Positions 6,778 through 30,380 of a stretch of DNA of 35,052 nucleotides are shown one piece after another; the stretch's first letter is position 1, and the number at the start of each line of letters is the position of its first letter. Below the pieces are notes generated by a model. It worked only from the letters and a program-made list of their open reading frames with translations, made no database searches and was not told where the DNA came from. Made by a program: the position numbers and the translations under genes. The DNA comes from an uncultured Eubacteriales bacterium (GTDB lineage Bacteria > Bacillota > Clostridia > Christensenellales > Aristaeellaceae), in NCBI GenBank assembly GCA_902785105.1, contig CACZXF010000014.1, positions 1 to 35,052 of the forward strand, in the 5' to 3' direction.

Positions 6778-6811
6778 ATCATAACCCATTTTTCTAAACT
6801 GAAAAGAAACT
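6778..6811 (-). promoter_or_regulatory. Boxed promoter, copy 1 (alarmone synthetase operon)
   Basis: On the minus strand AGTTTCTTTTCAGTTTAGA (6793-6811) is followed by TATGAT (6778-6783). The C of the internal CAG begins 18 nt before the -10 box. It matches the eight-copy consensus with one change (T for G at position 7). No TTGACA-like -35 box is present, so an activator is probably needed. Confidence 0.78.
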
Positions 6812-6867
6812 GTATGTTAAGCTGATTTATTGTAAAATAAAACAGAATCGGATTTCCAGTCCCAAAT

Positions 6868-6901
6868 AGTTTCGATTCAGTTTAGATTGCGCCGTTATAA
6901 T
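6868..6901 (+). promoter_or_regulatory. Boxed promoter, copy 2 (two-component system)
   Basis: AGTTTCGATTCAGTTTAGA (6868-6886) precedes TATAAT (6896-6901) with the same 18-nt geometry. It differs from consensus at one base. It lies immediately before the response regulator gene, leaving a leader of only about a dozen bases, so the regulator may control itself. Copy 1 lies back to back 57 bp away. Confidence 0.8.
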
Positions 6902-6920
6902 ATCGGCGAGGTGATCAGCT

Positions 6921-7595
6921 ATGTTCCATATCCTGGTGGTGGACGACGACAAAAATACCCGCAGACTGATGCAGGCGGTTCTGGAGACAGAGAATTATAC
7001 AGTCTCAACGGCGGAAAACGGCGAAGAGGCGCTGGACGTCCTGGAGCGCGAACACATTGACCTCGTCGTGCTGGACATTATGATGCCAAAGATGGACGGG
7101 TATGCCTTCACGAGCGCCATTCGGGAGGCCAACAACGATATGCCCATACTGATGGTTTCCGCCAAGCAGCTGCCGGAGGACCGGCACAAGGGCTTTATCG
7201 TCGGCACGGACGACTACATCGTCAAGCCCATCGACACCGAGGAATTCCTGCTGCGCATTCGCGCTCTTCTGCGAAGGGCGCGCATTGCCAGCGATCATCG
7301 GATCACCGTCGGCGATGTCGTCCTCGATTACGACGCCATGACGGTGTCCCGGGGCGACGAGACGATAGAGCTTCCTCAAAAGGAATTCCTGCTGCTGTTC
7401 AAGCTGCTCTCCTACCCCGGGCGGATATTCACCCGCATCCAGCTGATGGATGAGATCTGGGGTGCGGACAGCGAGACCGGCTGGGAAACCGTCACCGTAC
7501 ACATTGCGAAGCTGCGAAGACGTTTCGAGGGATGGAAGGAATTTGAGATTCAATCCGTGCGCGGGTTGGGATATAAGGCAGTGAAGGACGTATGA
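6921..7595 (+). CDS. OmpR-family response regulator
   Basis: 224 residues from ATG 6921, with GAGGTG seven bases upstream. The receiver domain (1-115) has a complete phosphorylation site: Asp8/Asp9, phosphoacceptor Asp52 in VVLDIMMPKMDGY, Ser80 and Lys102 in YIVKPID. The winged-helix Trans_reg_C domain (about 128-222) includes LPQKEFLLLFKLL and ends TVHIAKLRRRFEG...SVRGLGYKAV. It is transcribed from a boxed promoter, and its last bases overlap the kinase start (ATGA), the typical cognate arrangement. PhoB/OmpR-family regulators bind tandem half-sites about 11 bp apart. The repeated AGTTT(C/A) box has that period, so this is the best candidate for the island's activator. The binding itself is inferred. 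Confidence 0.94.
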   Translation: MFHILVVDDDKNTRRLMQAVLETENYTVSTAENGEEALDVLEREHIDLVVLDIMMPKMDGYAFTSAIREANNDMPILMVSAKQLPEDRHKGFIVGTDDYIVKPIDTEEFLLRIRALLRRARIASDHRITVGDVVLDYDAMTVSRGDETIELPQKEFLLLFKLLSYPGRIFTRIQLMDEIWGADSETGWETVTVHIAKLRRRFEGWKEFEIQSVRGLGYKAVKDV

Positions 7596-8662
7596 ATCAC
7601 AAAAAACCTACGGAAACCCAGAAGCGAAGGCTCGGCCTGACGCTGATGTATTCCGGCGTGACGTTTGTGTTTTTCCTGGCGACCATGCTGATCGTCGGCA
7701 TCGCCATGGCCGTACTGGTCCATCACGGCGTGCTGGTGCCCGGTCCTGTCACACCCAGCGTGAACCGCATCATATGGGGTATGGTGCTGGCAAGCATCGT
7801 CATCGGAACGCTTATGGCCTTTCTCGCCAGCCGTATTCCCCTTCGCCCCATCAATCAGCTGATCAACGCCATGAACCGCCTGGCCAGGGGCGATTACAGG
7901 GCGCGCCTGAAATACGACAGTTTCTTCGGGCGCTATGCCACCGGCCGGGAGATCAGCGCCAGCTTCAACAAGCTGGCGGAGGAGCTGGAGGGCACGGAGA
8001 TGCTGCGCTCCGACTTTATCAACAACTTCTCCCACGAGTTCAAAACGCCCATCGTATCCATCGCGGGCTTCGCGGCGCTCCTGAAGCGCGGCAATCTGTC
8101 AGAGGCGCAAAAGCGGGAGTACATCGACGTGATCGAGGAAGAATCCCTGCGCCTCTCGGCCATGGCGACCAACGTACTCAACCTGACCAAGGTGGAAAAC
8201 CAGAATATACTGACCAACACCAGCCGTTTCAACCTTTCCGAACAGGTCCGCTCATGCGTGCTGCTGTTGGAGCGCAAATGGACGCAAAAGCGTCTGGAGT
8301 TGGAGCTGGACTTTGACGAGCATTTCATCACCGCCAATGAGGAACAGCTCAAGCAGGTGTGGATCAACCTGATCGACAACGCGGTAAAATTCACGCCGGA
8401 ATACGGCCTGGTGCGCATTGACATCACTGAGGCTGGCAAAACGATGGTCATTTCAGTGGCCAATACCGGCAGCATGATTCCCGAAGCCGCCCGGGAGCGC
8501 ATCTTTCAAAAGTTCTATCAGGCCGATGAATCTCACGCCACCCAGGGCAACGGCGTGGGCCTGGCCATCGTCAAAAAGGTGGTGGAGCTCCACGGAGGCG
8601 CGATCCAGGTCACAAGCGAGAGCGACCTGACGACCTTCACCGTCACACTCCCCATAGAATAA
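7592..8662 (+). CDS. Sensor histidine kinase with minimal extracellular loop
   Basis: 356 residues; the ATG at 7592 overlaps the regulator's stop codon. Two membrane helices (about 17-44 and 59-80) are joined by only about 14 residues (HHGVLVPGPVTPSV). The kinase therefore has almost nothing outside the cell, as in the intramembrane-sensing kinases that follow envelope damage or partner transporters. A HAMP linker (RIPLRPINQLINAMNRLARG) follows. The HisKA motif FINNFSHEFKTP places the phosphorylated His at 148. The ATPase domain has the N box (INLIDNAVKFTP, Asn259/Asn263), a D box in NTGSMIP and the G box (GNGVGLAIVKKVV, 319 on). All catalytic motifs are intact. The signal is unknown; membrane state or an interacting small membrane protein is likely. 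A hairpin follows at 8686-8716. Confidence 0.93.
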   Translation: MNHKKPTETQKRRLGLTLMYSGVTFVFFLATMLIVGIAMAVLVHHGVLVPGPVTPSVNRIIWGMVLASIVIGTLMAFLASRIPLRPINQLINAMNRLARGDYRARLKYDSFFGRYATGREISASFNKLAEELEGTEMLRSDFINNFSHEFKTPIVSIAGFAALLKRGNLSEAQKREYIDVIEEESLRLSAMATNVLNLTKVENQNILTNTSRFNLSEQVRSCVLLLERKWTQKRLELELDFDEHFITANEEQLKQVWINLIDNAVKFTPEYGLVRIDITEAGKTMVISVANTGSMIPEAARERIFQKFYQADESHATQGNGVGLAIVKKVVELHGGAIQVTSESDLTTFTVTLPIE

Positions 8663-8685
8663 AGTATCGTTGTTGCGTCAACCGG

Positions 8686-8716
8686 CCGCGGCAGAATAAA
8701 CACTTTTCTGCCGCGG
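8686..8716 (+). terminator. Hairpin ending the two-component operon
   Basis: CCGCGGCAGAA (8686-8696) pairs perfectly with TTCTGCCGCGG (8706-8716) around a 9-nt loop. Only a short T-rich tail (TCAGTTTCGTTT) follows, and that tail is the start of boxed promoter copy 3. The terminator and the next promoter are therefore packed together. Confidence 0.65.
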
Positions 8717-8718
8717 TC

Positions 8719-8752
8719 AGTTTCGTTTCAGTTTATAAACCAAGCATAGAAT
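8719..8752 (+). promoter_or_regulatory. Boxed promoter, copy 3 (small-membrane-protein operon)
   Basis: The exact box AGTTTCGTTTCAGTTTATA lies at 8719-8737, with TAGAAT as -10 at 8747-8752 and the same 18-nt offset. It reads toward the operon 8788-11963. Confidence 0.78.
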
Positions 8753-8787
8753 AACGCAAAACCATCAAAGAATCGAGTGAAATCCAA

Positions 8788-8892
8788 ATGAACCAAACGG
8801 TCGATATTCTGCTTCGAGCCGCCCTGGCGGTCGCTCTGATCTGGCTCGTGATGCATCTCGTGCGCAGGGCGGAGGAGCGGAAGAAGAAATAA
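8788..8892 (+). CDS. 34-residue single-pass membrane peptide
   Basis: ATG 8788 opens MNQTVDILLRAALAVALIWL, then VMHLVRRAEERKKK and TAA. The protein has one hydrophobic helix (about 7-25) and a strongly basic tail, so an N-out/C-in orientation is expected. The ribosome site is modest (GAGTGA eight bases before). It is the first reading frame after boxed promoter copy 3, 36 nt from its -10 box, and it is followed 39 nt later by a membrane-anchored protein. Small basic single-pass peptides often regulate membrane proteases or kinases. The neighbouring loopless kinase, FtsH and rhomboid are possible partners, by proximity only. I know no named family. It is short enough that expression needs proof. 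Confidence 0.5.
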   Translation: MNQTVDILLRAALAVALIWLVMHLVRRAEERKKK

Positions 8893-8931
8893 ATCCTCAC
8901 GATAAACCTGTATGGAAAGAAGGAATGTCCT

Positions 8932-9600
8932 GTGCCGGACACCCAGTTGACATGGCCCAGATTCAGGGAGCACCTGCGCAAGTACGGCTGGATCTATCTC
9001 GTAGGTATCGCCGTTTGTCTTGTCTGCACAAATCTGCTGTGGACGACCACGGCCCCTCGTGTACCCGACGATCAGGCCGTGGTGATCTTCCTGGCCGACG
9101 GCTACTCGAATCCGGATCCTCTGGATGATGTGGCGGAGGCTATGCTGAATCGTACACAGGCGTACGATGAAACTCTGGAGGAGGTTGAATTTCAGAGCCT
9201 GATGTATGCCGATCCCAGCGTCGACTATACCGGCCCAATGGTACTCATGGCCCGTCTGTCCACCGGCGAGGGCGATGCCTTCCTGGCAAGTCAGGTCGTC
9301 ATGGACAGTCTCGTCAACTCTGAGGTCCTCCTGCACCTGGATGAGCCTGTAAAATCAGGATGGATGGCGGATTACGGGCTGGAGCCCTATTATGTCACAG
9401 TCACTGACGAGGAAACCGGTGAACAGGATACCTACCTTGCCGGCCTGAAAATTGACAAGCTGGCAGCGCTGTCGAAAGCACAGGCCTTCAACAACGAAGG
9501 GGCATATCTCGCCGTTACCAGCAACGGCACCAACCAGGAGACGACGCTTCGCGCCCTGGAGGTAATGGTGGATGAGCTCCTGAATTGGAAGGATGAATGA
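8932..9600 (+). CDS. Membrane-anchored extracytoplasmic protein of unknown function
   Basis: 222 residues from GTG 8932, with AAGGAA eight bases upstream. A short cytoplasmic N-terminus (PDTQLTWPRFREHLRKYG) leads into one helix (about 19-39, WIYLVGIAVCLVCTNLLW). The remaining ~180 residues are outside the membrane. That part is acidic (DDQAVVIFLADGYSNPDPLD, YADPSVDYTGPMVLMARL) and has no lipobox or recognisable enzymatic motif. Its alternating strands and helices suggest a compact globular domain. It sits between the 34-residue peptide and a two-helix membrane protein in one operon behind a boxed promoter. An envelope sensor or substrate-presenting role would fit but is not supported by any motif. 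Confidence 0.8.
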   Translation: MPDTQLTWPRFREHLRKYGWIYLVGIAVCLVCTNLLWTTTAPRVPDDQAVVIFLADGYSNPDPLDDVAEAMLNRTQAYDETLEEVEFQSLMYADPSVDYTGPMVLMARLSTGEGDAFLASQVVMDSLVNSEVLLHLDEPVKSGWMADYGLEPYYVTVTDEETGEQDTYLAGLKIDKLAALSKAQAFNNEGAYLAVTSNGTNQETTLRALEVMVDELLNWKDE

Positions 9601-9618
9601 CGCGAGGGAGGCATTGAT

Positions 9619-10074
9619 ATGTACACGGATCGGGATACGATCGAAATCACAAACAAACTCCGAAAAAACTGGGCGGTTCTCACGCCTGCGCTGCTGGTTA
9701 TCCTGGGCTTCTACATCTGGGCGCTGCCGCAGCGCGTGGAATGGCTAGCTATGGTGATGGGGCCGCTGCTGTTTGTCACTGCCTGCTTTGGAATTATCGC
9801 GTATATCTATCCCAACGCGAAGTACAGGCGCTTCCTCCAGGAACTCCAAACCGGCCTCAGCCGGGAAATGCACGGCACCATCGTTTCCGTTTCCGACACC
9901 CCGGAGGAGCAGGACGGCGCGATGGTACTGCCCGTACATCTGCTGCTGACGGAGGAGCAGGATGAGCGCATCGTCTACCTGAACGCCTCCAAGGCCGACC
10001 TGTTCCCAAAGACCGGCACCGAAGTATTGCTGCGCTGCTGCGGTCGACATATCAGGGAAGCAATTCCTACATGA
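9619..10074 (+). CDS. Two-helix membrane protein of unknown function
   Basis: 151 residues from ATG 9619 behind GAGGGAGG. Two adjacent membrane helices (about 19-36, LTPALLVILGFYIWAL, and 42-63, WLAMVMGPLLFVTACFGIIAY) form a hairpin. A cytoplasmic domain of about 85 residues follows (ELQTGLSREMHGTIVSVSDT, then a strand-rich region ending GTEVLLRCCGRHIREAIPT). The last part resembles small beta-barrel domains attached to membrane hairpins (NfeD- or OB-like), but the match is weak. It is encoded 18 nt after the previous gene and 52 nt before the permease, so it is part of the same operon. Confidence 0.75.
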   Translation: MYTDRDTIEITNKLRKNWAVLTPALLVILGFYIWALPQRVEWLAMVMGPLLFVTACFGIIAYIYPNAKYRRFLQELQTGLSREMHGTIVSVSDTPEEQDGAMVLPVHLLLTEEQDERIVYLNASKADLFPKTGTEVLLRCCGRHIREAIPT

Positions 10075-10126
10075 CTGAAGATGAAAGGAATTCCCATTAA
10101 GCTTCACCTGCTTGGAGAGGAAAGAA

Positions 10127-11257
10127 ATGCGTACCAGCTGGAAAAACTGCTTTCGCGTTGGAGCATCCGCTTTTTGCTTCTATCTGCTCATCCATAATTG
10201 GGGCACTATCTCAGCGCATCTGGGCCTGGTTTTGTATGTTGCCAGGCCCCTCGGCATTGGATGCTGCATTGCCTATGTCGCAAACATACTCATGTCTGCC
10301 TTCGAAAGGCATTGGAAAGGCGGGTTCAGATATAAGCGTCAGGTGTGCATTACCCTGTCCCTGTTGACTATTGCCGCGTTGATGTATATTTTCGTAGGAC
10401 TGATTCTGCCCCGGTTTGTATCCTGCGTAAGCACCCTGATCGAGACGCTCCCCGGATTTCTTGAGCGCGCTTATCAATGGCTGAATGAAGCCATCCATTT
10501 GGACGCTTTTCTCAAAGAACACGGCCTGATCTCCACACAGGGCGATCCTGATTGGGCCGTTTGGGCCAAACAAATGGACGAGTGGCTGATCAACGGCTGG
10601 ACCGGGGCGTTGAGCACCGTGGTAAACGCCGCAACCTCAGTGGTCAGCAGCGTCGCTTCTATCTCGATCGGCGTCGTATTTGCCGTATACCTCCTGTCCG
10701 GGAAGGAGAGGCTTGCACAACAGTTTGAGCGGCTTATAAAGCGCATGATCGGAAGCAAGCGACACGACATGCTCCATCACATCCTCTCAATCATCAATAA
10801 GAGCTTCAGAAACTATGTGATCGGGCAGAGCACCGAAGCGCTCATCGTTGGATCGCTTTGCACCATCGGCATGCTCATTCTCAGGATTCCATACGCGCTG
10901 ATGGTCGGTCCATTGGTCGGCCTTTGCGCGCTCATTCCCATCGTTGGGGCTTACATCAGCGCTATATCAGGCGCTGTTATGATTTTCACAGTGTCGACGT
11001 CGAAGGCTCTCATATTTATCGCATTCATTCTGCTGCTGCAATGGACTGAGGGCAACCTCATCTATCCCCATGTCGTCGGCTCAAGAATGGGTCTCCCCGG
11101 CATCTGGATTATCGCGGCAGTCACCATTGGCGGCGGCTGTCTTGGCATCAGGGGGATGCTCATTGCCGTCCCTTTGACGACATCTGTATACTGCCAGTTG
11201 CGGGAATATGCCGTGCAAAATGGCAGAGTATCGACGCTTGATCGCCTATTGCAATAG
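10127..11257 (+). CDS. AI-2E family permease-like membrane protein
   Basis: 376 residues. ATG 10127 is preceded by GGAGAGG; the in-frame TTG at 10112 overlaps that site and is not used. About seven to eight hydrophobic helices are arranged as in the AI-2E transporter family (PF01594). There is an N-terminal pair, a long amphipathic region (ETLPGFLERAYQWLNEAI), then GVVFAVYLLSGKERL. The conserved C-terminal core contains SIINKSFRNYVIGQ, LMVGPLVGLCALIPIVGAYI and GNLIYPHVVGSRMGLPG. Members export signals, peptides or sodium ions, and many have no assigned substrate. Here it is in an operon with unknown membrane proteins under the island box, so a stress-linked efflux role is more likely than quorum sensing. 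This is inference. Confidence 0.85.
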   Translation: MRTSWKNCFRVGASAFCFYLLIHNWGTISAHLGLVLYVARPLGIGCCIAYVANILMSAFERHWKGGFRYKRQVCITLSLLTIAALMYIFVGLILPRFVSCVSTLIETLPGFLERAYQWLNEAIHLDAFLKEHGLISTQGDPDWAVWAKQMDEWLINGWTGALSTVVNAATSVVSSVASISIGVVFAVYLLSGKERLAQQFERLIKRMIGSKRHDMLHHILSIINKSFRNYVIGQSTEALIVGSLCTIGMLILRIPYALMVGPLVGLCALIPIVGAYISAISGAVMIFTVSTSKALIFIAFILLLQWTEGNLIYPHVVGSRMGLPGIWIIAAVTIGGGCLGIRGMLIAVPLTTSVYCQLREYAVQNGRVSTLDRLLQ

Positions 11258-11297
11258 GTTGACTCGTGTTGAGTCCTATCAAAAGAGGAGGATGTGC

Positions 11298-11963
11298 ATG
11301 GAAAAGCCCACTACGCCACGCATCAGCAGCTCGCTTCGCCATGAAATCGTGCGTATGCCCGAGGAGGCTTACTCTGCCAGCGGCATCATCATCAATGGCA
11401 GGCGAATTAAAACGCTGATCTTCACCACCGATCTCGCCATCATCCGCAACTGTGACGCGGACGCTGTATTTGCCGTCTATCCATTCACGCCGCAACAGTC
11501 CATCAGCGACGCCATCATCAAAGCATCCTACATCCCCGTGTTTTGCGGAGTGGGCGGAGGCACTACAAAAGGCCTGCGCACCGTCGGACTGGCAAAGGAT
11601 GTGGAATCGCAGGGAGCGATGGGTGTGGTCTTGAATTCCCCGATATCCAGTCTGAATCTCGCGGCAGTTGCAGCCGCGGTGGATATTCCGGTGGTCATCA
11701 CCATCACAAGGCCGGATACAAATGTGGAGGAGCGAATTCGCGCCGGAGCGGATATCATCAACGTGGCCTGCGGCCTGTCAACCCCAAGTGTTGTTCAGAG
11801 CATTCGAAAGGCTTTTCCGGAGACACCGATCATCGCCAGCGGTGGCCATAGTGGAGAATCGATTCGAGCGACCATTGCCGCCGGAGCGAACGCAATCACC
11901 TATACGCCGCCATCCACAAAGGAGCTGTTCAGTGCGATGATGCAGCGTTATCGAGGCGAATGA
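11298..11963 (+). CDS. TIM-barrel protein with phosphate-binding loop, substrate unknown
   Basis: 221 residues from ATG 11298, six bases after AGGAGG; the ATG at 11292 touches the ribosome site. Alternating strands and helices run through the protein: KTLIFTTDLA, DADAVFAVYPF, YIPVFCGVGGG, AMGVVLNSPIS, DIPVVITITR, ADIINVACG, TPIIASGGHSGESI and ANAITYTPPS. They form a complete (beta/alpha)8 barrel. The GGHSGES turn (182-188) near the end resembles the standard phosphate-binding motif of NanE/IGPS/ThiG-like barrels. No catalytic set could be named. It is last in the operon from 8788, about 40 nt after the permease, so it may act on a phosphorylated metabolite linked to that transport. An annotation as hydrolase would be unsupported. 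Confidence 0.7.
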   Translation: MEKPTTPRISSSLRHEIVRMPEEAYSASGIIINGRRIKTLIFTTDLAIIRNCDADAVFAVYPFTPQQSISDAIIKASYIPVFCGVGGGTTKGLRTVGLAKDVESQGAMGVVLNSPISSLNLAAVAAAVDIPVVITITRPDTNVEERIRAGADIINVACGLSTPSVVQSIRKAFPETPIIASGGHSGESIRATIAAGANAITYTPPSTKELFSAMMQRYRGE

Positions 11964-11999: not shown

Positions 12000-12032
12000 G
12001 CTTTCGTTTCAGTTTATAAAGCAAAGTATAAT
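12000..12032 (+). promoter_or_regulatory. Boxed promoter, copy 4 (structured RNA, DnaJ/DnaK operon)
   Basis: GCTTTCGTTTCAGTTTATA (12000-12018) and TATAAT (12027-12032) have an offset of 17 rather than 18. The first two bases deviate (GC for AG). Transcription should start near 12039. A short inverted repeat, GAAAGCC (11962-11968) with GGCTTTC (11999-12005), overlaps the box. Confidence 0.75.
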
Positions 12033-12038
12033 GAGTTA

Positions 12039-12228
12039 CTGTGGGAAGCAACTCACAATCCAGGTGATTCGCTGTCTGGCAGCGTTCACACCGGCAGAGG
12101 GATTATTCCTGCTTTCAAAAACTTCGTTCTTCGAACAACACCGGCTGCACTCCTTCCCGCCTGTAAGGGCAATTAAAATAAGCAGCCACCCTCAAAAAAT
12201 ACCCCTTAATCCCTCTGCCGGTCTTTTT
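12039..12228 (+). ncRNA. Candidate structured RNA or attenuator with a 16-bp closing helix
   Basis: A perfect 16-bp inverted repeat, ACCGGCAGAGGGATTA (12090-12105) and its complement (12207-12222), encloses 101 nt and ends in CTTTTT (12223-12228), like an intrinsic terminator. Smaller helices nest inside: GTTC/GAAC (12126-12136) and GGCTGC/GCAGCC (12143-12148 with 12182-12187). An apical GCC/GGC hairpin lies within the second. The overlapping reading frame 12031-12279 has no ribosome site and a poor composition. The boxed promoter at 12000-12032 would give a transcript of about 190 nt. It could be a small RNA or a leader that terminates before the zinc-ribbon/DnaJ/DnaK genes, 50 nt downstream. 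A MITE with 16-bp terminal repeats is an alternative, but no target duplication is evident. No known RNA family was recognised. Confidence 0.6.
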
Positions 12229-12278
12229 CCGCTGGCGACAGTCGTCGGTTCAAGCTTGCTTAAAGGAAGTGATATATA

Positions 12279-12707
12279 ATGTTGGATAAGCTGAAGAGCG
12301 CATGGAGCAAAGCCAGCAGTGCCGTCGTTCATTGGCTTCGCAGGTGCAACGGCGCGGACAACCTGGGCATGGCGATTATTGTCACATCTCTGATCGCGTT
12401 GATCCTTGCCCGGATAACGGGTCTGGCTCTGCTGGCCTATGCCGCCATTGCCCTGTACCTCTGGGCCATGTTCAGGATGTTCTCACACAACAAGGCCAGG
12501 CGTATGCAGGAAAACAATCGTTTCACCCAAGGTTGGATGAAGGGCAAAACCGAGGCTTCCCAAGCGCTCAATCGTCTGAAGAACAGCAGGAAGTATAAAT
12601 ACTACCGGTGTCCGAATTGCAAAGCGCGGCTGCGAATGCCCCGCGGCATCGGAGAAAAGAACGTGACCTGCTCGCAGTGCAGGCACACATTCAAGCAAAA
12701 GGCATGA
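12279..12707 (+). CDS. Membrane protein with C-terminal zinc ribbon
   Basis: 142 residues from ATG 12279 with AAGGAAGTG upstream. Two hydrophobic helices (about 30-46 and 48-66) follow a short amphipathic start. A basic linker then leads to a zinc ribbon: YRCPNCKARLRMPRG and VTCSQCRHTF, with Cys111, Cys114, Cys131 and Cys134. The ribbon should face the cytoplasm and may bind client protein or nucleic acid. It is the first gene after the structured RNA and directly precedes the J-domain gene (30 nt). A membrane adaptor for the DnaJ/DnaK pair is therefore a reasonable but untested reading. Similar ribbon-plus-J-domain-plus-Hsp70 sets may exist in other Clostridia; I cannot check that here. Confidence 0.78.
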   Translation: MLDKLKSAWSKASSAVVHWLRRCNGADNLGMAIIVTSLIALILARITGLALLAYAAIALYLWAMFRMFSHNKARRMQENNRFTQGWMKGKTEASQALNRLKNSRKYKYYRCPNCKARLRMPRGIGEKNVTCSQCRHTFKQKA

Positions 12708-12737: not shown

Positions 12738-13535
12738 ATGGTAAAGGATCCCTATGATGTGCTTGGCGTTTCCCGCGGGGCCAACATGGACGAGATCAAG
12801 CGCGCCTACCGAAAAAAGGCCAAGGAGTGCCATCCCGATCTCCATCCGGATGATCCCCACGCGAAGGAGCGTATGCAGGAGGTCAACGAAGCCTATGACA
12901 TGCTGTGCAACCCTGACAAGCACCGTCAGCAGCAGAGCAGCAAGAATCATTCCAACGCAGATTACCGGCAGTCGGGCACGGGTTACGGCTACGGAAACCA
13001 GTCTTATGGAAGCGGGTCATATAGCGGCTTCCGTCAGGAGGGTGGCCAGGGCTGGGGCGACGGGTTCGGATTCGAGGACTTCTTTGGCTTCGGTCGCCGG
13101 CAATACGCCTATGGTTTTGATCAACCCCATGAAGCGCCCGGCGACAGTCCCGATATTCGCCAGGCGATTCATTACATACAGGCCGGGCAGTTCTCCCAGG
13201 CCATAAACGTGCTGAATGGAATGCCGAGCTACGCCCGCGACGGCAGGTGGTACTATCTCTGCGGCGTGGCGCAGCACGGCATGAACAACGACGCTCAGGC
13301 CATTGAGTATATGCGGCGCGCCGTACAATACGACCCCAACAATGCCCTTTATCACCGGCTGCTGAATCAGTACCGGCAGGCGGATTCCTACGGGCAAACG
13401 CCATTTTCATCCGGAAACAGTCCTGCGCGCAGCCCCCTTCGGATGGTGCTGCGCGGCATTGCCATCTTCATGGTCATACAAATCATCATGAGCATGATGA
13501 TGCGGTTCAGGTTTTTCCCACTATTCTTCTGGTAA
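12738..13535 (+). CDS. Membrane-tethered J-domain protein (DnaJ-like)
   Basis: 265 residues from ATG 12738. The J domain (about 4-65) is complete, with the HPD motif at 32-34 (KECHPDLHPDD) and the basic helix DEIKRAYRKKAK. A Gly/Tyr/Ser-rich linker (about 75-125) follows. Next comes a helical TPR-like region (IRQAIHYIQAGQFSQAINVL, DGRWYYLCGVAQHGM, DAQAIEYMRRAVQYDPNNA). A C-terminal membrane helix (GIAIFMVIQIIMSMMM) closes the protein. The zinc fingers and C-terminal beta domains of canonical DnaJ are absent, so it is a type III co-chaperone. It would recruit Hsp70 to the inner face of the membrane. The DnaK gene follows after 15 nt, so the two are almost surely partners. Confidence 0.9.
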   Translation: MVKDPYDVLGVSRGANMDEIKRAYRKKAKECHPDLHPDDPHAKERMQEVNEAYDMLCNPDKHRQQQSSKNHSNADYRQSGTGYGYGNQSYGSGSYSGFRQEGGQGWGDGFGFEDFFGFGRRQYAYGFDQPHEAPGDSPDIRQAIHYIQAGQFSQAINVLNGMPSYARDGRWYYLCGVAQHGMNNDAQAIEYMRRAVQYDPNNALYHRLLNQYRQADSYGQTPFSSGNSPARSPLRMVLRGIAIFMVIQIIMSMMMRFRFFPLFFW

Positions 13536-13550: not shown

Positions 13551-15305
13551 ATGAGTAGAGTTATCGGCATCGACCTGGGCACCACCAACAGCTGCGTCGC
13601 GGTTGTGGAAGGCGGACACCCGGTCATCATACCCAACGACAAGGGGGAGCGCTCCACGCCCAGCGTGGTCGCCTTTACCAACAAAGGCGAACGACTGGTG
13701 GGCAGCGCCGCACGGCGCCAGCAGACCGTAAACGCGGACCGCACCATCAGCTCGGTCAAGCGCCAGATGGGCACCGACTGGAGCGCCAGAATCGACGGCA
13801 AGAAGTGGACGCCCCAGGAGATCAGCGCCCAGATCCTTCGGAAGCTGAAGCAGGACGCGGAGGCCTACCTGGGCGAAACGGTCAGTGACGCCGTGATTAC
13901 GGTGCCCGCCTACTTCAACGATATCCAGCGTCAGGCCACCAAGGATGCCGGGCGCATCGCCGGGCTGAATGTCAAGCGCATCATCAACGAGCCCACCAGC
14001 GCCGCGCTGGCCTATGGGCTGAACAACGGAACGCCGCAAAAGATCATGGTTTACGACTTGGGCGGCGGCACCTTCGACGTTTCCATCATCGAGATTGGCG
14101 ACGGGGTCATCGAGGTGCTGGCCACCTCAGGCGACAACCACCTGGGTGGCGACGATTTTGACGAGCGCGTGGTCAACTACCTGCTGGATGAATTCCAGAA
14201 GGAGAACCACATCGACCTGCGCAGGGACCTGCCCGCCATGGGCCGCTTGCGGGAGGCTGCGGAGCAGGCCAAGAAGGAGCTCTCCGGCATGGATTCAGCC
14301 AGTGTCTCCCTGCCCTTCATCGCCCAGAAGGACGGCCAGCCTGTCCACTTTGAAACCACGCTGACGCGCTCGAAATTCGATCAGCTGACCGCGGATTTGG
14401 TGGAGCGCACCGCCGTTCCCGTACAGAACGCCCTGCGGGACGCCGGCATTTCCGCCTCGGAGCTGGGGCGGGTGCTGCTGGTGGGCGGTTCCACCCGCAT
14501 TCCCGCCGTGCAGGCCAAGGTGCGACAGCTCACCGGCAAGGAGCCCTCCAAAAACATCAACCCGGATGAGTGCGTCGCCCAGGGCGCGGCAGTACAGGGC
14601 GATATCCTGCAGGGCTCCCATGAGCTGGCCACAAAGGGCGATATCCTGCTGCTGGATGTCACGCCGCTGTCGCTGTCCATTGAAACCGTGGGCGGCGTGG
14701 CAACGAGGCTGGTGGAGCGCAATTCCCGCCTGCCCATCCACTACTCCCAGATCTTCTCCACCGCCGCCCCCTTCCAGCGGGCGGTCGAGATCCACGTGCT
14801 CCAGGGCGAGCGGCCCATGGCGAAGGACAACAAGACCATTGGCAAGTTCAAGCTGACCGGCATCGAGCGCGCCATGGCGGGTGTACCTCAGATCGAGGTC
14901 ACCTTCGACATCGACGCCAACGGCATATTGACCGTCTCAGCCCAGGACAAGAAAACCGGGAAGGCGCAGTCTATCACCATCACCGCCAACGACAGGATGT
15001 CCGAGGATGAGATCCAGCAGGCCATACGGGACGCAGAGATGTACGCTGCCTCCGACGGGGTCTACAAGGACAGCATGGAGGCCATGAGCGAGGCACGGAC
15101 GCTGATCCAGAAGGTCGAGCAGGCCCTCAAGGACAAGGGCAAGTCCATCGACAAAGGAGATAAGAAGCAGATCAAGGCCGATGTCGCGGCGCTGAACAAG
15201 GCGCTGTTCAAGTGCAAGCCCGACAAGATGAATGAGAATGACCTGTCCAACCTCCGCGCCGCTATCGGCAAGCTGGAGGGTTCAGCGGCAATCATTTTGA
15301 AATAA
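13551..15305 (+). CDS. dnaK: Hsp70 chaperone, accessory DnaK paralogue
   Basis: 584 residues from ATG 13551 behind GGAGG. The actin-like ATPase domain has [18 protein letters not shown] (phosphate 1), [13 protein letters not shown] (phosphate 2) and [12 protein letters not shown] (adenosine). The linker reads [15 protein letters not shown] (expected DVxPLSLGIE). The substrate-binding beta domain contains [16 protein letters not shown] and a helical lid follows. The protein is shorter than typical DnaK (about 610-640) and lacks the acidic, disordered tail. It has no CIRCE site. Instead it is last in a transcript driven by boxed promoter copy 4 and is paired with a membrane-bound J protein. This suggests a dedicated second Hsp70, with the housekeeping dnaK elsewhere; that copy lies outside the window. 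A strong terminator follows at 15324-15355. Confidence 0.93.
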
Positions 15306-15323: not shown

Positions 15324-15355
15324 ACAGCGCGGGTCCAACACCCGCGCTGTCTTTT
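15324..15355 (+). terminator. Terminator of the DnaK operon
   Basis: ACAGCGCGGGT (15324-15334) pairs perfectly with ACCCGCGCTGT (15340-15350) around CCAAC and is followed by CTTTT. It separates the plus-strand chaperone operon from the convergent cyclase-like gene ending at 15355. Confidence 0.88.
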
Positions 15356-17740: not shown

Positions 17741-17774
17741 AGGATAAGCTGACAATATAAACTGAAACGAAAGT
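17741..17774 (-). promoter_or_regulatory. Boxed promoter, copy 5 (glycosyltransferase operon)
   Basis: On the minus strand ACTTTCGTTTCAGTTTATA (17756-17774) precedes TATCCT (17741-17746) with the standard 18-nt offset. Only the second base departs from consensus. It reads toward the GT2 gene starting at 17710. Confidence 0.72.
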
Positions 17775-22436: not shown

Positions 22437-22470
22437 AGTTTCGTTTCAGTTTAGATTTCCGTTGTACGAT
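22437..22470 (+). promoter_or_regulatory. Boxed promoter, copy 6 (acyl ligase operon)
   Basis: The exact consensus AGTTTCGTTTCAGTTTAGA is at 22437-22455, with TACGAT (22465-22470) as -10 and an 18-nt offset. It reads into the three-gene operon 22535-26833. Confidence 0.78.
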
Positions 22471-22534: not shown

Positions 22535-24250
22535 ATGTCGCAAATCACTGCGAAGACGCCGTGGGCCGACCACCTTGGCGGCGTGCCCATGCACCTTGAC
22601 TACTTTGAAGGCTCCATGATCGCCACTGTGGAGGCCGTCGCCGAGAGGTATCCAGACAACGTTGCCTTTGATTTCATGGGCAAATCCACCACCTACAAAG
22701 GCATGGTGCGGGAGATCCATCGCTGTGCCAGAGCGCTGAAGACCATCGGCGTGCGCGAGGGCGACAAGGTGACCATCGCGCTGCCCAACTGCCCACAGGC
22801 CATTTACATGTTCTACGCGGTGAACCTGGTGGGTGGCATCGCCAACATGATCCATCCTCTCTCCGCCGAAAAGGAGATTGAATTCTATTTGAATGAATCT
22901 GAAAGTGTGACCGCCATCACACTGGATCAATTCTACAACAAGTTTGAAAACGTGCGCGAGAACACCAAAGTGGTCAACATCATCATCGCCAGCGTAAAAG
23001 ACGCTCTGTCCACGCCCATCAAGGCAGGATACATGCTGACGGAGGGACGGAAGATCAAGCGCATCCCAAGGGACGCGCCCGTCATTCGCTGGAAGGAATT
23101 CATGGAACTGAGCAAGGCCTGCTTCTATCGCTATCGTGTGGACAGGCAGTCCGACGATCCAGCCGTCATACTGTATTCAGGCGGAACCACCGGCACCACC
23201 AAGGGTATCGTGCTAACCAATAAAAACTTTAATGCCCTTGGGCAGCAGGTGCTCGCCGCCAACCCAATGTTCTCCGTCGGCGACAGGATGCTCGCCGCCA
23301 TGCCGCTTTTCCACGGCTTTGGACTGGGCGTCTGCATCCATACCATGCTCTCCCAGGGCGGTCGCTGCATACTGATCCCGCGCTTTACCGCGGAGAGCTA
23401 TGCCAAGCAGATCGTAAAGTATCATTGCAACTTCATCGCCGGCGTTCCCACGCTTTATGAGGCGCTGCTGCGGCTTCCCTCCATGGACGGCGCGGATCTG
23501 AGCAGCCTGAAAGGAGTGTTCTCCGGCGGCGACAGCCTGTCCATCGAGCTCAAGAAAAAGTTTGACAAATTTCTGGCCGATCACAACGCCTCTATACAGG
23601 TGCGCGAGGGATATGGCACCACCGAAACGGTCACAGCATGTTGCCTGACTCCGCCGCACATGTACAAGGAGGGCTCCATTGGTCTGCCTTTCCCGGATAC
23701 CTACATCAAAATTGTGGAGCCGGGCACCGATCGCGAGCTTCCCTATGGCGAGGAGGGCGAGATCCTGCTGGCCGGCCCCACCGTGATGAAGGAATACGCC
23801 GGCCACCCCGAGGAGACCGCTCAGACTCTGCGTGCCCATGCGGACGGGCTGACCTGGGTCTACACCGGCGACCTCGGCACCATGGACGAGGAGGGCTTCA
23901 TCTTTTTCAAAGGACGTGCAAAGCGCATGATCATCACCTCGGGTTACAATGTGTATCCCGGTCAGTTGGAGAACATTCTGGACGCCCACGAGAAGGTACA
24001 GATGAGCTGCGTGATCGGCATACCCGACCCTTATAAGATACAGAAGGTGAAGGCATTTGTCAAGCTGGTGCCCGGCACCCCGGCGACCGATGCCACGCGA
24101 AACGAGCTGCTGGATTACTGCCGAAAGCACATTGCCAAATATGCCATGCCCTACGACATTGAGTTCCGGGAGGATATGCCCAAGACGCTGGTGGGTAAGG
24201 TTGCCTATCGACAGCTTGAAGAGGAAGAGCTGACGAGACAGGCGAGCTGA
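22535..24250 (+). CDS. AMP-forming acyl ligase (acyl-CoA synthetase family)
   Basis: 571 residues from ATG 22535 behind AAGGGGAAA; upstream in-frame codons overlap the promoter. ANL-superfamily motifs are complete: P-loop YSGGTTGTTKG (214-224), GYGTTET (359-365), YTGDLG (443-448), the hinge/ribose motif KGRAKRMIITSGYNVYP, and catalytic Lys555 in KTLVGKVAYRQ. The enzyme activates a carboxylic acid as acyl-AMP and usually transfers it to CoA. The pocket cannot be read from sequence, but length and motif style suit medium- or long-chain fatty acids. The next gene encodes a CrtO-type acyltransferase fused to a glycolipid glycosyltransferase, so this ligase probably supplies its acyl donor. That is inference from operon order. 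Confidence 0.88.
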   Translation: MSQITAKTPWADHLGGVPMHLDYFEGSMIATVEAVAERYPDNVAFDFMGKSTTYKGMVREIHRCARALKTIGVREGDKVTIALPNCPQAIYMFYAVNLVGGIANMIHPLSAEKEIEFYLNESESVTAITLDQFYNKFENVRENTKVVNIIIASVKDALSTPIKAGYMLTEGRKIKRIPRDAPVIRWKEFMELSKACFYRYRVDRQSDDPAVILYSGGTTGTTKGIVLTNKNFNALGQQVLAANPMFSVGDRMLAAMPLFHGFGLGVCIHTMLSQGGRCILIPRFTAESYAKQIVKYHCNFIAGVPTLYEALLRLPSMDGADLSSLKGVFSGGDSLSIELKKKFDKFLADHNASIQVREGYGTTETVTACCLTPPHMYKEGSIGLPFPDTYIKIVEPGTDRELPYGEEGEILLAGPTVMKEYAGHPEETAQTLRAHADGLTWVYTGDLGTMDEEGFIFFKGRAKRMIITSGYNVYPGQLENILDAHEKVQMSCVIGIPDPYKIQKVKAFVKLVPGTPATDATRNELLDYCRKHIAKYAMPYDIEFREDMPKTLVGKVAYRQLEEEELTRQAS

Positions 24251-24282: not shown

Positions 24283-25878
24283 ATGATGGTGGTAAAATGC
24301 CTGGTATTTGCCGCCTCGACGGGCCTGTTTGCCTTTTTCCTGGGCAGGCTGTTTCCCAAGCGCCTGTTTCACTACAGCGCCGCACCCTTCCGGGACTATC
24401 GCTGGGAAAAAGGCGGCAGGTTCTACGAGAAGCTTGGAATACGTCGCTGGAAGAACCTGCTTCCGGACATGAGCCGCGTGTTTCCAAAGCTTATGCAGCC
24501 GAAACGCATCGATGCCATGCTGGGCTCCGAGGAGATCCTCTGCATGATTGAGGAAACCTGCGTCGCAGAGGCGGTCCATGTCGTGCTCTGTATCGTGGGA
24601 CTGGTTCTGATCAGGCTGTGGCGAGGCCTGGGTGGCATCGTTGCGTGGCTCTTGTACGCTTTGCTGGGAAACCTGCCTTTTATCATGATCCAGCGCTACA
24701 ATCGCCCGCGATATGTGGAAATGCTGAAAGCCCGTCAGTCCCGTGCAAGGCGGGTTAACGCCTCATCCCGTGAGCGCCGTCTGCTGATACTGAGCTGTGA
24801 TACCGGCGAAGGCCACAATGCCTGCGGGCGTGCCATTCGGGAATGCTATGAGACCCATGGCTGGAAATGTGAACAGCGGGACGCGCTCCGTTTTCTGTCC
24901 CCGCTGCTGTCCCGCGCGGTAGTATTCTGCCATGTGCACGGTTATCGCCACGCACCGGGGTCCTTTCGGGCGGGATATGCCTTTGCGGAAAGACATCCTG
25001 CGCTGCTTGGTGAGAAGTCGCTCGTAGGGCGTCTCATGGCAAGCGGCGCGGAACACCTCTACTGCCATATGCTGGATGGCGGCTACGGTCATGTCATATC
25101 CACCCATGTGATCTCCGCCTATATGCTCAGCGATATGCTCAAGCGTTACTCCCTGAAGCCGCGCACAGGATTCGTGGCTACCGATTATACCTGCAGCCCC
25201 ATCGTGCGGGAGAGCGAGCTGGACTGGTACTTCGTGCCTGACGCTGCCCTCACGCAGGATTTTGTCTGTGACAATATCCCAAAGGAACGCACCGTGCCCT
25301 CCGGCATACCGGTCAATGCCACGTTCTATGCGAGGGGCGACGCTCAAGCCGCGAAGGAAAGCCTTGGTATCCCCAGTGAAGACCGTCACATTCTGATGAT
25401 GGGCGGCAGCATGGGCTGCGGGGACATGCGCGGTATTGCGGCACAGCTGTATCGACGGTTGCCTGACGATGTCACCCTGACCGCCGTCTGCGGCAGCAAT
25501 CGTCGCCTTGAGCGACGCCTCCGGCACAAATATCGGATGGATTTTCGCATTCGTGTCCTGGGCTACGCGAACAATATGTCCCAGCTGATGGACTCCGCCG
25601 ATTTGTTCATCACGAAGCCGGGCGGATTGAGTACGACTGAGGCCGCCGCGAAGGGTCTGCCCATGGTGTTGATCGACGCAGTCGGCGGCTGCGAGGACTA
25701 TAACGCCCGCTTCATGGAACGCGCGGGTATCGCGGTCAGCGCCAGGAAGTCTGTGGAAATCGCACGCATTGCCACGGAGCTGATCCAATCGCCGTGTCTT
25801 TTGAAGCGTATGCGGGTTCCGGCTGCAGTGGTTGATCGCCCGGCTGAAATAATCTATCACTATATGGATGCCGCATAG
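24283..25878 (+). CDS. Fusion: CrtO-type acyltransferase domain and MGDG-synthase-type glycosyltransferase
   Basis: 531 residues. The ATG at 24283 (or 24286) is 32 nt after the ligase stop. AAAGGA is better spaced for an out-of-frame ATG at 24276, so initiation here may be inefficient. Residues 1-150 resemble the glycosyl-4,4'-diaponeurosporenoate acyltransferase CrtO family: LFPKRLFHYSAAPFRDYRWE, LGIRRWKNLLPDMS, IEETCVAEAVH and NLPFIMIQRYNRPR, with membrane helices. Residues 165-531 form an MGDG synthase/UgtP-type GT28 enzyme: LILSCDTGEGHNACGRAI (acceptor-side motif), then the sugar-nucleotide site FITKPGGLSTTEAAAKGLPM. Joined, they could build an acylated glycolipid in one protein: sugar addition by one half, acyl transfer by the other. 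Both halves are normally separate proteins. The product and the acyl and sugar donors are not determined. Confidence 0.82.
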   Translation: MMVVKCLVFAASTGLFAFFLGRLFPKRLFHYSAAPFRDYRWEKGGRFYEKLGIRRWKNLLPDMSRVFPKLMQPKRIDAMLGSEEILCMIEETCVAEAVHVVLCIVGLVLIRLWRGLGGIVAWLLYALLGNLPFIMIQRYNRPRYVEMLKARQSRARRVNASSRERRLLILSCDTGEGHNACGRAIRECYETHGWKCEQRDALRFLSPLLSRAVVFCHVHGYRHAPGSFRAGYAFAERHPALLGEKSLVGRLMASGAEHLYCHMLDGGYGHVISTHVISAYMLSDMLKRYSLKPRTGFVATDYTCSPIVRESELDWYFVPDAALTQDFVCDNIPKERTVPSGIPVNATFYARGDAQAAKESLGIPSEDRHILMMGGSMGCGDMRGIAAQLYRRLPDDVTLTAVCGSNRRLERRLRHKYRMDFRIRVLGYANNMSQLMDSADLFITKPGGLSTTEAAAKGLPMVLIDAVGGCEDYNARFMERAGIAVSARKSVEIARIATELIQSPCLLKRMRVPAAVVDRPAEIIYHYMDAA

Positions 25879-25906
25879 TGGATAAGTTGTGAAGGGAGGA
25901 GCAGCT

Positions 25907-26833
25907 ATGATCATTCTCGCGCTTGCTGTCGGTCTGCTTCTGTTCGTCCAGCTGGCCTTCGCGGCGCTGATGTGGTTCAGCCTTCGCAAGGCAAAGCCGC
26001 CTGATTTGAGCCGCCCGGAAGCGGTGCGCGGTACACGCTGGGAACCCTATGCACTCACGCTGTCCCGCGGCATTGCCTCCATTCGCAATCAGCCCTGGGA
26101 GGACATATGGCTGGATTCGGAGGACGGCCTGAAGCTCCACGCGCGAATGCTGCCCGGAAACTCGGGAAAGACCGTTCTGCTGGCTCACGGCTACCGTTCC
26201 TCCGGGGAAAACGACTTCTGCGGGATATTTGACTATTATCACAGCCGCGACTTCACCATCCTGATGATTGACCAGCGTGCCCATGGCGAGAGCGAAGGCA
26301 GGTTGATCGGCTTCGGCGTTCGGGAATATGAGGACGTCGCCCTTTGGATGCATTACGCCACCGTGAACCTTTCCGGAACAATCTGGCTGCACGGCGTCTC
26401 AATGGGGGCCGTCTCATGTTTGCTGGCGGTCTCCCGAGGCTTTCCTGATCGTCTGAGGGGTATCATCGCGGATAGCGCCTACGATGGAATTGATGAACTC
26501 CTGTTCTACCAGAGCATGCGGAAGTACCGGCTTCCCAGGCGGCTGATTATACCTCTGCTGGCCGTCTCCGGCAGGCTGCTTCTGGGAGGGGGATTCAACA
26601 AACTTTCCCCATCCAAGGCCGCCGCGGAATGTGCCTTGCCGCTGCTGATGATCCACAGGGACAACGACCACACCATACCGCCTGATATGCCCGCCAGATA
26701 TCGTGCGGTATGCGGAGACAGAACAACCTTCGTGACCATCCCCGGCGCACGACACGCCATGTGCTGGCTAAAGAATCCACAGGCCTATGAAGCCGCGCTC
26801 GACGCGTTCTACGAAGAAACGCTGCATCAATAA
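25907..26833 (+). CDS. Membrane-anchored alpha/beta hydrolase
   Basis: 308 residues from ATG 25907, preceded by GGGAGG; the in-frame GTG at 25889 overlaps this site. An N-terminal helix (2-24, IILALAVGLLLFVQLAFAAL) anchors the protein. The alpha/beta fold follows with VLLAHGYRSSG (oxyanion region), IDQRAHGESEG, the nucleophile elbow HGVSMG (Ser165), an acid in RDNDHTIP (Asp252 or Asp254) and GARHAM (His283). The triad is complete. Relatives are lipases, esterases and acyl-peptide-type hydrolases. As third gene of the ligase/fusion operon (28 nt after the fusion), it may trim or recycle the acylated product. The orientation of the catalytic domain is not certain. A terminator follows at 26862-26939. 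Confidence 0.85.
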   Translation: MIILALAVGLLLFVQLAFAALMWFSLRKAKPPDLSRPEAVRGTRWEPYALTLSRGIASIRNQPWEDIWLDSEDGLKLHARMLPGNSGKTVLLAHGYRSSGENDFCGIFDYYHSRDFTILMIDQRAHGESEGRLIGFGVREYEDVALWMHYATVNLSGTIWLHGVSMGAVSCLLAVSRGFPDRLRGIIADSAYDGIDELLFYQSMRKYRLPRRLIIPLLAVSGRLLLGGGFNKLSPSKAAAECALPLLMIHRDNDHTIPPDMPARYRAVCGDRTTFVTIPGARHAMCWLKNPQAYEAALDAFYEETLHQ

Positions 26834-27404: not shown

Positions 27405-27419
27405 GATTCGCTCCTCCTC

Positions 27420-28093: not shown

Positions 28094-28123
28094 ATTGTAA
28101 CACGAATTAATTTATGATACAAT
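28094..28123. promoter_or_regulatory. Two face-to-face promoters on the same 30 bp
   Basis: Plus strand: TTGTAA (28095-28100), 17 nt, TACAAT (28118-28123), toward tetR. Minus strand: TTGTAT (28117-28122), 17 nt, TACAAT (28094-28099), toward the DUF1269-like gene. Each -35 box overlaps the other's -10 box, so RNA polymerase cannot use both at once. The segment is itself close to a palindrome (TTGTAWCAYRAATT half-sites) and would suit a dimeric repressor. Confidence 0.75.
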
Positions 28124-28166
28124 TGTTTTATTATCAAGTGATACATGGAGGCGAAAAGATGTATCA
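28115..28166. promoter_or_regulatory. Probable TetR operator half-sites (TGATACA)
   Basis: TGATACA occurs at 28115-28121, within the shared promoter. TGATACAT at 28139-28146 forms an inverted repeat with ATGTATCA at 28159-28166, which contains the tetR start codon. The second pair encloses the ribosome binding site. Binding at these places would block both promoters and tetR itself, a common autoregulation layout. Confidence 0.55.
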
Positions 28167-28713: not shown

Positions 28714-28742
28714 CACATTCAAAAAAGGGGAGGAATCACAGC

Positions 28743-29510: not shown

Positions 29511-29512
29511 GC

Positions 29513-30202
29513 TTATTTTGATTGATTGAACCGGTAACCTATGCCCCGAACGCTCTGCACCATATCCGCATGCTGCCCCAGTTTCCTTCGTAGATGGCGG
29601 ATATGCACATCTACGGTTCTCGTTTCGCCGAGAAAATCGGGCCCCCAGATCCTGTTAAGAATGAACTCCCGGCTCAATACCCGGCCTCTGTTCTTTGCGA
29701 GCAGCAACAGGAGCTCAAATTCCTTGCGGGTAAAGGCGACGGTTTCATCCTCGATGCGCACCTCATATCGCTCCTCGTCGATCACCAAGTCCCCAAACAT
29801 CAGGGAATTGTCAGCCGGCTCTGACTTCGCTCGTCGTCGGAGCTGTGCCTTGATCCTTGCAAGCAATTCGCGCTGCGAGTACGGCTTTACAATGTAGTCG
29901 TCAGCTCCCGCGTCGAGGACATCCACAATGCGCAGCTCATCCGCGTTTGAGGACAGGCAGATGACTGGCAGCGTCTCCGTCGCCGGAATGAATCGGATTG
30001 ATTGACAAAACGCCATGCCGTCTGTATCCGGTGAATCCGTATTGACCAGGATCAGGTCAGGCTTTCCCGTCCTGGCCGTTCGGATACCCTCCCATCCTTC
30101 GTTGGCGGCAATGGCTTTGTAGCCCTCCTGTCTCATCAGGCCGATCAGGCGTTCCTGAGAATCCGAATCGCCATCAACAATAAGAATCAGTTGACTTGAC
30201 AA
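29513..30202 (-). CDS. Orphan OmpR-family regulator with a degenerate receiver
   Basis: 229 residues from ATG 30200-30202. The receiver domain (1-115) keeps Ser84 and Lys106 (YIVKPYS). However, the phosphoacceptor position is Asn54 (LILVNTDSPDTDG, where LILLDxxxPxxDG is expected), and one Asp of the acid pair is Gly11 (IVDGDSD). Aligned with the regulator at 6921, Asp52 corresponds to Asn54 and Asp9 to Gly11. Standard phosphorylation is therefore unlikely, although Asp56 lies two residues on. The winged-helix domain (about 130-225) is intact (AFTRKEFELLLLLAKNRGRV, TVDVHIRHLRRKLG, VQSVRGIGYRF). No kinase gene adjoins. Its promoter carries box copy 7. It may bind the same box without phosphorylation or respond to a ligand, like other pseudo-receiver regulators. 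Confidence 0.9.
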   Translation of the reverse strand: MSSQLILIVDGDSDSQERLIGLMRQEGYKAIAANEGWEGIRTARTGKPDLILVNTDSPDTDGMAFCQSIRFIPATETLPVICLSSNADELRIVDVLDAGADDYIVKPYSQRELLARIKAQLRRRAKSEPADNSLMFGDLVIDEERYEVRIEDETVAFTRKEFELLLLLAKNRGRVLSREFILNRIWGPDFLGETRTVDVHIRHLRRKLGQHADMVQSVRGIGYRFNQSK

Positions 30203-30251
30203 AGCTGTCTCCCCTTTCCTCGCTAAAGCGCATCCTCATTGCCTTTAACTC

Positions 30252-30285
30252 ATCATAATCCGCTTTTCTAAACTGAAACGAAACT
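30252..30285 (-). promoter_or_regulatory. Boxed promoter, copy 7 (atypical regulator)
   Basis: On the minus strand the exact consensus AGTTTCGTTTCAGTTTAGA (30267-30285) precedes TATGAT (30252-30257) with an 18-nt offset, 50 bp upstream of the regulator ATG. Confidence 0.8.
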
Positions 30286-30346
30286 TCTGCGTCTCACATG
30301 AACAAATACTTGCACAGAAGCCTGGATATAGCCTTGTGTGTCCTGC

Positions 30347-30380
30347 AGTTTCGTTTCAGTTTAGAATTAGCCTGTATAAT
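30347..30380 (+). promoter_or_regulatory. Boxed promoter, copy 8 (patatin)
   Basis: The exact consensus AGTTTCGTTTCAGTTTAGA (30347-30365) precedes TATAAT (30375-30380) with an 18-nt offset. It lies back to back with copy 7, about 60 bp apart. The 226-bp intergenic region 30203-30428 holds nothing else recognisable. Confidence 0.82.

Follow-up and report, generated by a model that had tools for sequence, protein, structure and literature searches.

Direct-repeat sites are known for several two-component systems. The PhoB site spans 22 bp and consists of two 11-bp direct repeats (PMC3978041). HitRS has been linked to envelope stress, and HitR acts through a direct repeat located before an ATP-binding cassette (ABC) transporter and before the genes of the system (PMC3968170). 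SaeS is an intramembrane-sensing kinase with a predicted linker of nine residues, SaeR binds GTTAA-N6-GTTAA (PMC5083920), and fatty acid kinase (Fak) is required for the activity of SaeRS (PMC5539427); these four descriptions follow excerpts of the papers. A direct repeat of similar layout is found on contig CACZXF010000014.1 of an uncultured Eubacteriales bacterium (assembly GCA_902785105.1); the whole stretch analysed, 35,052 nucleotides (nt), is referred to as the window. Eight copies of this element, hereafter the box, all lie within a single 24-kb gene cluster, ahead of stress and membrane-lipid genes. With good confidence, based on sequence comparison, the box appears to be a regulatory element whose likely reader is RR1, a response regulator encoded in the same cluster.

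Scanning of the window for AGTTTCGTTTCAGTTTA with up to three mismatches returned exactly eight sites, compared with a mean of 0.04 and a maximum of 1 in shuffled sequence. The original prediction of eight copies, with positions and strands as in the feature list below, was reproduced in full, and the eight-copy observation is confirmed as real. The match to AGTTTCGTTTCAGTTTA is perfect in four copies, with one mismatch in three and two mismatches in one (copy 12000; copies are named here by coordinate), and the dinucleotide following the box is GA (five copies) or TA (three). All -10 boxes that had been quoted are present downstream of their copies, at a distance from GTTTA of 11 nt in seven cases and 10 nt in copy 12000. 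A TTGACA -35 is absent, as had been claimed, the best -35-like hexamer reaching 3/6 in seven copies and 4/6 in one.

It had also been proposed that every copy points at a gene start. This is directly the case for six copies, those of the RelA-like, RR1, GT2, acyl ligase, RR2 and patatin genes, where the start of an open reading frame (ORF) lies 36-81 nt after the box. Copy 8719 is followed first by a 34-codon ORF (8788-8892) and then by an ORF at 8932, and copy 12000 lies 262 nt ahead of gene 12279-12707, behind which come DnaJ and DnaK. In the relative G210 a box is likewise located 220 nt ahead of a 12279-like gene, DnaJ and DnaK.

A long leader (12033-12278, plus strand) separates the 12000 promoter from its gene, and G210 has a long leader as well. 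Conserved structure was looked for between the 12000 box and gene 12279, and the gappy G210 alignment gave nothing clear.

The draft genome comprises 3.44 Mb in 131 contigs and is 91.9% complete, and sites in its missing parts are possible. With up to two mismatches to AGTTTCGTTTCAGTTTA its only matches are the eight copies. The description of the regulon as local is right for this genome. At three mismatches one extra match appears (contig C9) versus nine for the reversed control. The degenerate pattern AGTTTMNNTTYAGTTTA (up to two mismatches, genome-wide) finds the eight copies and six further places versus 15 in the control, and therefore nothing beyond the window stands out. Within the window a matrix scan for further weak boxes (e.g. 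before FtsH) gave none above shuffle level.

The box and RR1 occur together in other genomes. The strict pattern of box plus -10, TTTCNNTTCAGTTTANAN{8,10}TANNNT, is present in 8/308 genomes of the family, at 18 places, and its reversed control in 0/308. RR1 orthologues (at least 68% identity over nearly the full length; a partial match of 70% in G119 is left out of the count) are found in 18/308. Seven of the eight strict-pattern genomes carry RR1; the exception is G240, whose box stands ahead of an ORF with an RR1-like beginning. The corresponding table (both 7, pattern without RR1 1, RR1 without pattern 11, neither 289) gives p = 5e-9. On the box contigs of G299, G158, G196, G210 and G142, RR1 (68-76% identical) and its kinase are located near the boxes; G159 has its box on a short contig and RR1 on a different one. 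When one mismatch is allowed, box plus -10 is found in 33/308 genomes, namely in 17 of the 18 with RR1 versus 16 of the 290 others (Fisher p = 5e-18), with 54 matches in total versus 3 for the reversed control. The whole-genome and relatives scan recovered the box with its fixed -10 offset, and the box goes with RR1.

Order-wide, the one-mismatch pattern gives 40 matches in 27/396 genomes. The reversed control gives 11, and therefore matches outside the family were counted only if they stand beside RR1/kinase-like or Fak-type genes: G045, G361, G656 and G566, with G444 as a weaker case.

Of the 24 loci collected, eight had been found through the box pattern, as had the window, and for this reason the spacing was assessed again on 16 loci picked by RR1 similarity (229 kb). 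These contain 15 boxes in 12 loci, with a -10 (at least 4/6) at exactly +11 in 15/15; each of 20 dinucleotide shuffles of the same loci contains 0-1 box. A wider set of 42 sites (24 loci; 22 genomes, of which 20 have sites; L070, L078 and L201 are left out, as is L082, which shares a contig with L071) has the -10 at +11 in 39/42. A matrix made from the 34 non-window sites ranks the eight window copies first to eighth, with scores from 47.0 down to 12.0 bits; no other window position exceeds 2.8 bits, and the best of 10 shuffled windows reaches 6.8. The OmpR/PhoB-type activator geometry suggested for the box is borne out: the repeats stand about 11 bp apart in the -35 place, at a fixed distance from the -10.

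A quick maximum-likelihood tree of 54 regulators (branch support by the Shimodaira-Hasegawa-like approximate likelihood ratio test, SH-aLRT, only; L184, a duplicate of L206, and L082 are omitted) places RR1 in a clade of 23 rows with SH-aLRT 99, and 19/23 of these have a box at most 2.6 kb away. The signature GWE[TS][VI]TVH is present in 23/23 clade rows versus 0/31 outside, where DERTVDVH occurs in 15 rows and TTVNVH in 5. In the AlphaFold model of RR1 the signature region corresponds to helix 189-201, which we take, from the fold of the family, to be the recognition helix. Together with the fixed -10 spacing elsewhere and the co-occurrence with RR1, this clade-specific helix supports the original idea of a shared cis-element with an OmpR/PhoB-type reader.

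Regulators outside the clade have repeats of their own. In the TTVNVH group these are AGTTTACGCTGAGTTTA or AGTTCATGTTGAGTTTA, and near several Bacilli regulators, 42-50% identical to RR1, TGTTCATA-type repeats have the same -10 spacing. The first survey of variant repeats required the +11 spacing; the repeat survey dropped this condition and used shuffles instead, and placed the -10 at +11 in 6/10 repeats of the TTVNVH group and 8/26 of the Bacilli (0-2 in ten shuffles), and in 3/6 of the DER group (shuffles 0-1). The comparison suggests that regulator and repeat letters drift together, with the geometry unchanged. At locus L211 (contig C25 of G267) a variant box at 944-977 (minus strand) is located just upstream of an FtsH-like gene; the best RR1 match listed for G267 is 51% identical.

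The same-genus relatives were set aside as comparators: in these 27 genomes the top RR1 matches among those listed are paralogues of 60-65% identity, five genomes having no match at the cut-off, and with up to two mismatches a box match is found in G005 only. Five of the same-genus genomes (G008, G013, G014, G025 and G026) share AGTTTATATTCAGTTGA, followed by a -10 at +11; in four, this site and the RR1 paralogue are on different contigs. AGTTTATATTCAGTTGA is perhaps the site of another regulator.

Several observations weigh against RR1 as the reader. G131 has RR1 and no box by these patterns, several relatives' RR1 genes have no box upstream, and four of the 23 clade rows have none within 2.6 kb. 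Conversely, 16 genomes without RR1 at 68% identity or above carry a one-mismatch match. One of them is G240, with its RR1-like ORF, and a few matches adjoin a sister regulator: those of G110, G112 and G116 have a regulator of 62-64% identity to RR1 nearby, and the match in G160 sits directly ahead of a partial RR1 match of 61%. The five same-genus AGTTTATATTCAGTTGA matches and the remaining exceptions have no explanation. By the same loose rule as applied to the clade (up to two mismatches), a box, mostly a one- or two-mismatch variant, also occurs by 16/31 non-clade rows, and therefore the loose box alone is no clade marker. Finally, the genomes share ancestry, which makes the Fisher p-values too small; the contrast is nonetheless large.

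RR1 matches PF00072 and PF00486 above cut-off and is therefore composed of a receiver and a winged-helix Trans_reg_C domain, as in the OmpR/PhoB family. Its predicted model has a mean pLDDT (predicted local distance difference test) of 86 and a pTM (predicted template modelling score) of 0.55. The phospho-acceptor D52 and the active-site K102 are invariant in RR1 and five orthologues. Among the best 25 of 98 NCBIfam rows none of the named regulators (MtrA, PhoB, VanR, YycF and others) is above its cut-off; MtrA scores 181 bits (cut-off 300) and PhoB 180 bits (cut-off 296). By hydropathy only, the window kinase and 10/11 orthologues have two hydrophobic stretches close together (in the eleventh row, L197, the frame was misread). 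This pattern fits the description of an intramembrane-sensing kinase, with two predicted membrane segments and a very short linker that leaves no room for a ligand domain. On contig C63 of G240 (L076, box at 735) a 266-aa ORF from about 786 starts RR1-like and runs in frame into a kinase core, which may be a fusion, a deletion or an assembly artefact.

The features of the cluster are as follows; boxes were located by scan and matrix unless indicated otherwise.

5952-6752, minus: small RelA/SpoT-type (p)ppGpp synthetase, putative target (Pfam PF04607; NCBIfam GTPPhKinYjbM under cut-off).
6778-6811, minus: box AGTTTCTTTTCAGTTTA at 6795-6811 with -10 TATGAT at +11, putative promoter of the RelA-like gene.
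6868-6901, plus: box AGTTTCGATTCAGTTTA at 6868-6884 with -10 TATAAT, putative promoter of RR1 and its kinase (autoregulation).
6921-7595, plus: RR1, OmpR/PhoB-family response regulator, proposed reader of the box (Pfam, co-occurrence, recognition helix).
7592-8662, plus: cognate histidine kinase, HAMP-HisKA-HATPase (Pfam, hydropathy).
8719-8752, plus: perfect box with -10 TAGAAT.
8788-11963, plus: genes behind the 8719 box, probably a single operon (34-aa ORF, 8932-9600, 9619-10074, 11298-11963).
10112-11257, plus: AI-2E-family transporter, within the same group.
12000-12032, plus: box with two mismatches and -10 TATAAT at +10 (scan).
12279-12707, plus: small protein, no Pfam match above cut-off.
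12738-13535, plus: DnaJ-TPR (Pfam).
13551-15305, plus: DnaK (Pfam).
15355-16488, minus: tocopherol-cyclase-like protein, after the GT2 gene (weak match, above cut-off).
16457-17710, minus: GT2 glycosyltransferase, 417 aa from ATG 17710.
17741-17774, minus: box ACTTTCGTTTCAGTTTA at 17758-17774 with -10 TATCCT.
22437-22470, plus: perfect box with -10 TACGAT.
22535-24250, plus: AMP-binding acyl ligase, probably in a single operon reaching to 26833.
24283-25878, plus: fusion of a CrtO-like domain with a monogalactosyldiacylglycerol (MGDG)-type glycosyltransferase.
25889-26833, plus: alpha/beta hydrolase.
29513-30202, minus: RR2, an OmpR-type orphan regulator, putative target (Asn at the alignment position of the phospho-Asp).
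30252-30285, minus: perfect box with -10 TATGAT, putative promoter of RR2.
30347-30380, plus: perfect box with -10 TATAAT.
30429-31322, plus: patatin-like phospholipase, putative target (Pfam PF01734, PF19890).
31389-34947, minus: ABC exporter gene pair, its upstream region meeting the contig end at 35052.

The CrtO-like and MGDG-type parts of the fusion are separate adjoining stretches in several relatives and on contig C75 of the same genome.

The putative targets in the window are the RelA-like synthetase, RR1 with its histidine kinase (RR1-HK), the AI-2E transporter group, the DnaJ/DnaK group, GT2, the acyl ligase with the lipid glycosyltransferase and hydrolase, RR2 and patatin. Over the 42 sites the next ORF is RR1 or its G240 form in 8 cases, DegV in 9, FakA-like in 2, ABC in 3, a 12279-like gene in 2 and radical SAM in 2; there are two more pairs of related small proteins, nine single cases and three sites with no ORF by the rule used. 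These labels were assigned by a simple ORF rule and clustering, with Pfam applied to eight representatives only, which confirmed DegV in 3 and FakA, radical SAM and ABC in 1 each. The commonest putative targets in relatives are RR1 itself and DegV/fatty-acid-kinase genes; the 11/42 sites with DegV or FakA-like genes behind the box are all in relatives. Outside the family the order kinase-box-FakA-like is found in G045 and kinase-box-DegV-FakA-like in G361. The genome under study has six DegV matches, on contigs other than the box contig C14, and therefore the Fak link is not seen in it.

The DegV/FakA, phospholipase and acyl-ligase genes are the reason why membrane-lipid stress is favoured as the signal; the target set suggests this. 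The chief rival retains the same regulator and assigns it an antimicrobial or toxic compound as signal, with HitRS-like detoxification as the response. ABC exporter genes are indeed found near RR1-HK or behind boxes in several genomes (relatives of the window exporter, 57-79% identical, lie near RR1-HK in G158 and G132), and HitRS, in the excerpt of PMC3968170, is linked to envelope stress and acts at a direct repeat that precedes an ABC transporter as well as the HitRS genes. For the window pair at 31389-34947 no box was seen, its upstream region being cut by the contig end. Behind the box, however, DegV (9/42) and FakA-like genes (2/42) outnumber ABC genes (3/42), and the window contains a phospholipase and an acyl ligase besides. 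The toxic-compound signal is accordingly regarded as unlikely, although it is the alternative with the most in its favour.

The following sequence of events can be proposed. With its two membrane segments and hardly any external domain, the kinase is likely to respond to a disturbance at or within the membrane; it is the near absence of an external domain that leads to this proposal. It would then phosphorylate RR1, and phosphorylated RR1 would bind as a tandem dimer to the two repeats 11 bp apart (AGTTTC-N5-AGTTTA). Since the repeats stand where a -35 would be, with a TATAAT-type -10 at a distance of 11 nt, RR1 bound to them would recruit the housekeeping RNA polymerase. In this way RR1-HK (positive feedback), RR2, the (p)ppGpp synthetase, DnaJ/DnaK, the lipid and glycan genes and the phospholipase may be switched on, the downstream genes presumably sharing transcripts. 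From the promoter geometry we infer that RR1 activates. A site beside the -10 could also block polymerase, in which case RR1 would repress or fine-tune its targets; but the lack of a consensus -35 in all eight promoters and the constant 11 nt to the -10 are what a -35-replacing activator needs, and repression is improbable. The model of RR1 as reader and activator, taken as a whole, is given a probability of about 0.83.

The original prediction had left binding open between the two OmpR-type regulators of the cluster; RR1 is now favoured and RR2 unlikely. RR2 (29513-30202) does have an OmpR-type DNA-binding domain, lies in the cluster and is fronted by a box. Its listed matches, however, are at most 46% identical in at least 60 genomes (its own included) and at most 44% in the 18 RR1-bearing genomes, 17 of which have the box, and 19 loci of RR2 homologues (68 kb) contain no box. 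In the alignment its receiver shows Asn where the phospho-Asp would stand and Gly instead of one Asp of the acidic pocket, so that RR2 is probably a phosphorylation-independent regulator. That RR2 reads the box instead of RR1 is very improbable; it is more likely a target whose level would be set by transcription.

Two elements at a fixed spacing also recall a sigma-factor promoter, in which a dedicated sigma factor would use the box as its -35 and the TATAAT-like motif as its -10. Such a -10 is of the housekeeping type, though, the conserved part of the box is a 17-bp double repeat and longer than -35 elements usually are, and it is a response regulator with which the box co-occurs. The Pfam rows shown for the 30 proteins scanned in the window include no sigma family; hardly any weight is left for this explanation. 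Chance similarity or a dispersed repeat element was dropped as next to impossible, given eight copies against 0.04 expected, flanks that by eye look unrelated, the matrix ranking and the presence of box plus -10 in other genera.

A broader picture may be drawn, which is tentative and held at somewhat below even odds. RR1-HK would be an undescribed membrane-lipid stress system of Clostridia whose ancestral role was the control of DegV/FakA-type and exporter genes, with the letters of regulator and box changing together; in the present species it would have been rewired into a self-contained stress island, in which a single kinase would govern (p)ppGpp synthesis, Hsp70 chaperones and lipid remodelling, with a second tier of regulation through the unphosphorylatable RR2. 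For a two-component system that apparently has no name, in Clostridia represented mainly by genomes assembled from metagenomes, the work provides a regulator, a binding site, the geometry of the promoter and a list of targets. The groups of regulators that each have a repeat variant of their own make a natural series for the change of DNA specificity in the OmpR family. If the DegV/FakA link is true, a membrane-type kinase would be tied to the use of fatty acids, which would complement the requirement of SaeRS for fatty acid kinase reported in the excerpt of PMC5539427.

Neither the box nor the regulator was recognised in the open-licence literature searched; the class of mechanism is known, and the regulon is apparently new and undescribed. 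PhoB-type sites stand in place of the -35, and the letters of the Pho box differ from those of the RR1 box. The Pho box of E. coli, as far as the excerpt goes, shares with the RR1 box its 11-bp direct repeats, and RR1 falls under the cut-off of the PhoB model. SaeRS of Staphylococcus aureus, judged from the excerpts, resembles the present system in a kinase with close membrane segments; it is a virulence regulator affected by fatty acid kinase, whereas in RR1 relatives the Fak-type genes are putative targets. In HssRS and HitRS of Bacillus and Staphylococcus, again from partial sources, the response regulator acts through a direct repeat, as proposed for RR1; their targets differ from those of RR1, and the likeness, drawn from descriptions rather than from comparison of sequences or repeats, is to be taken as a lead.

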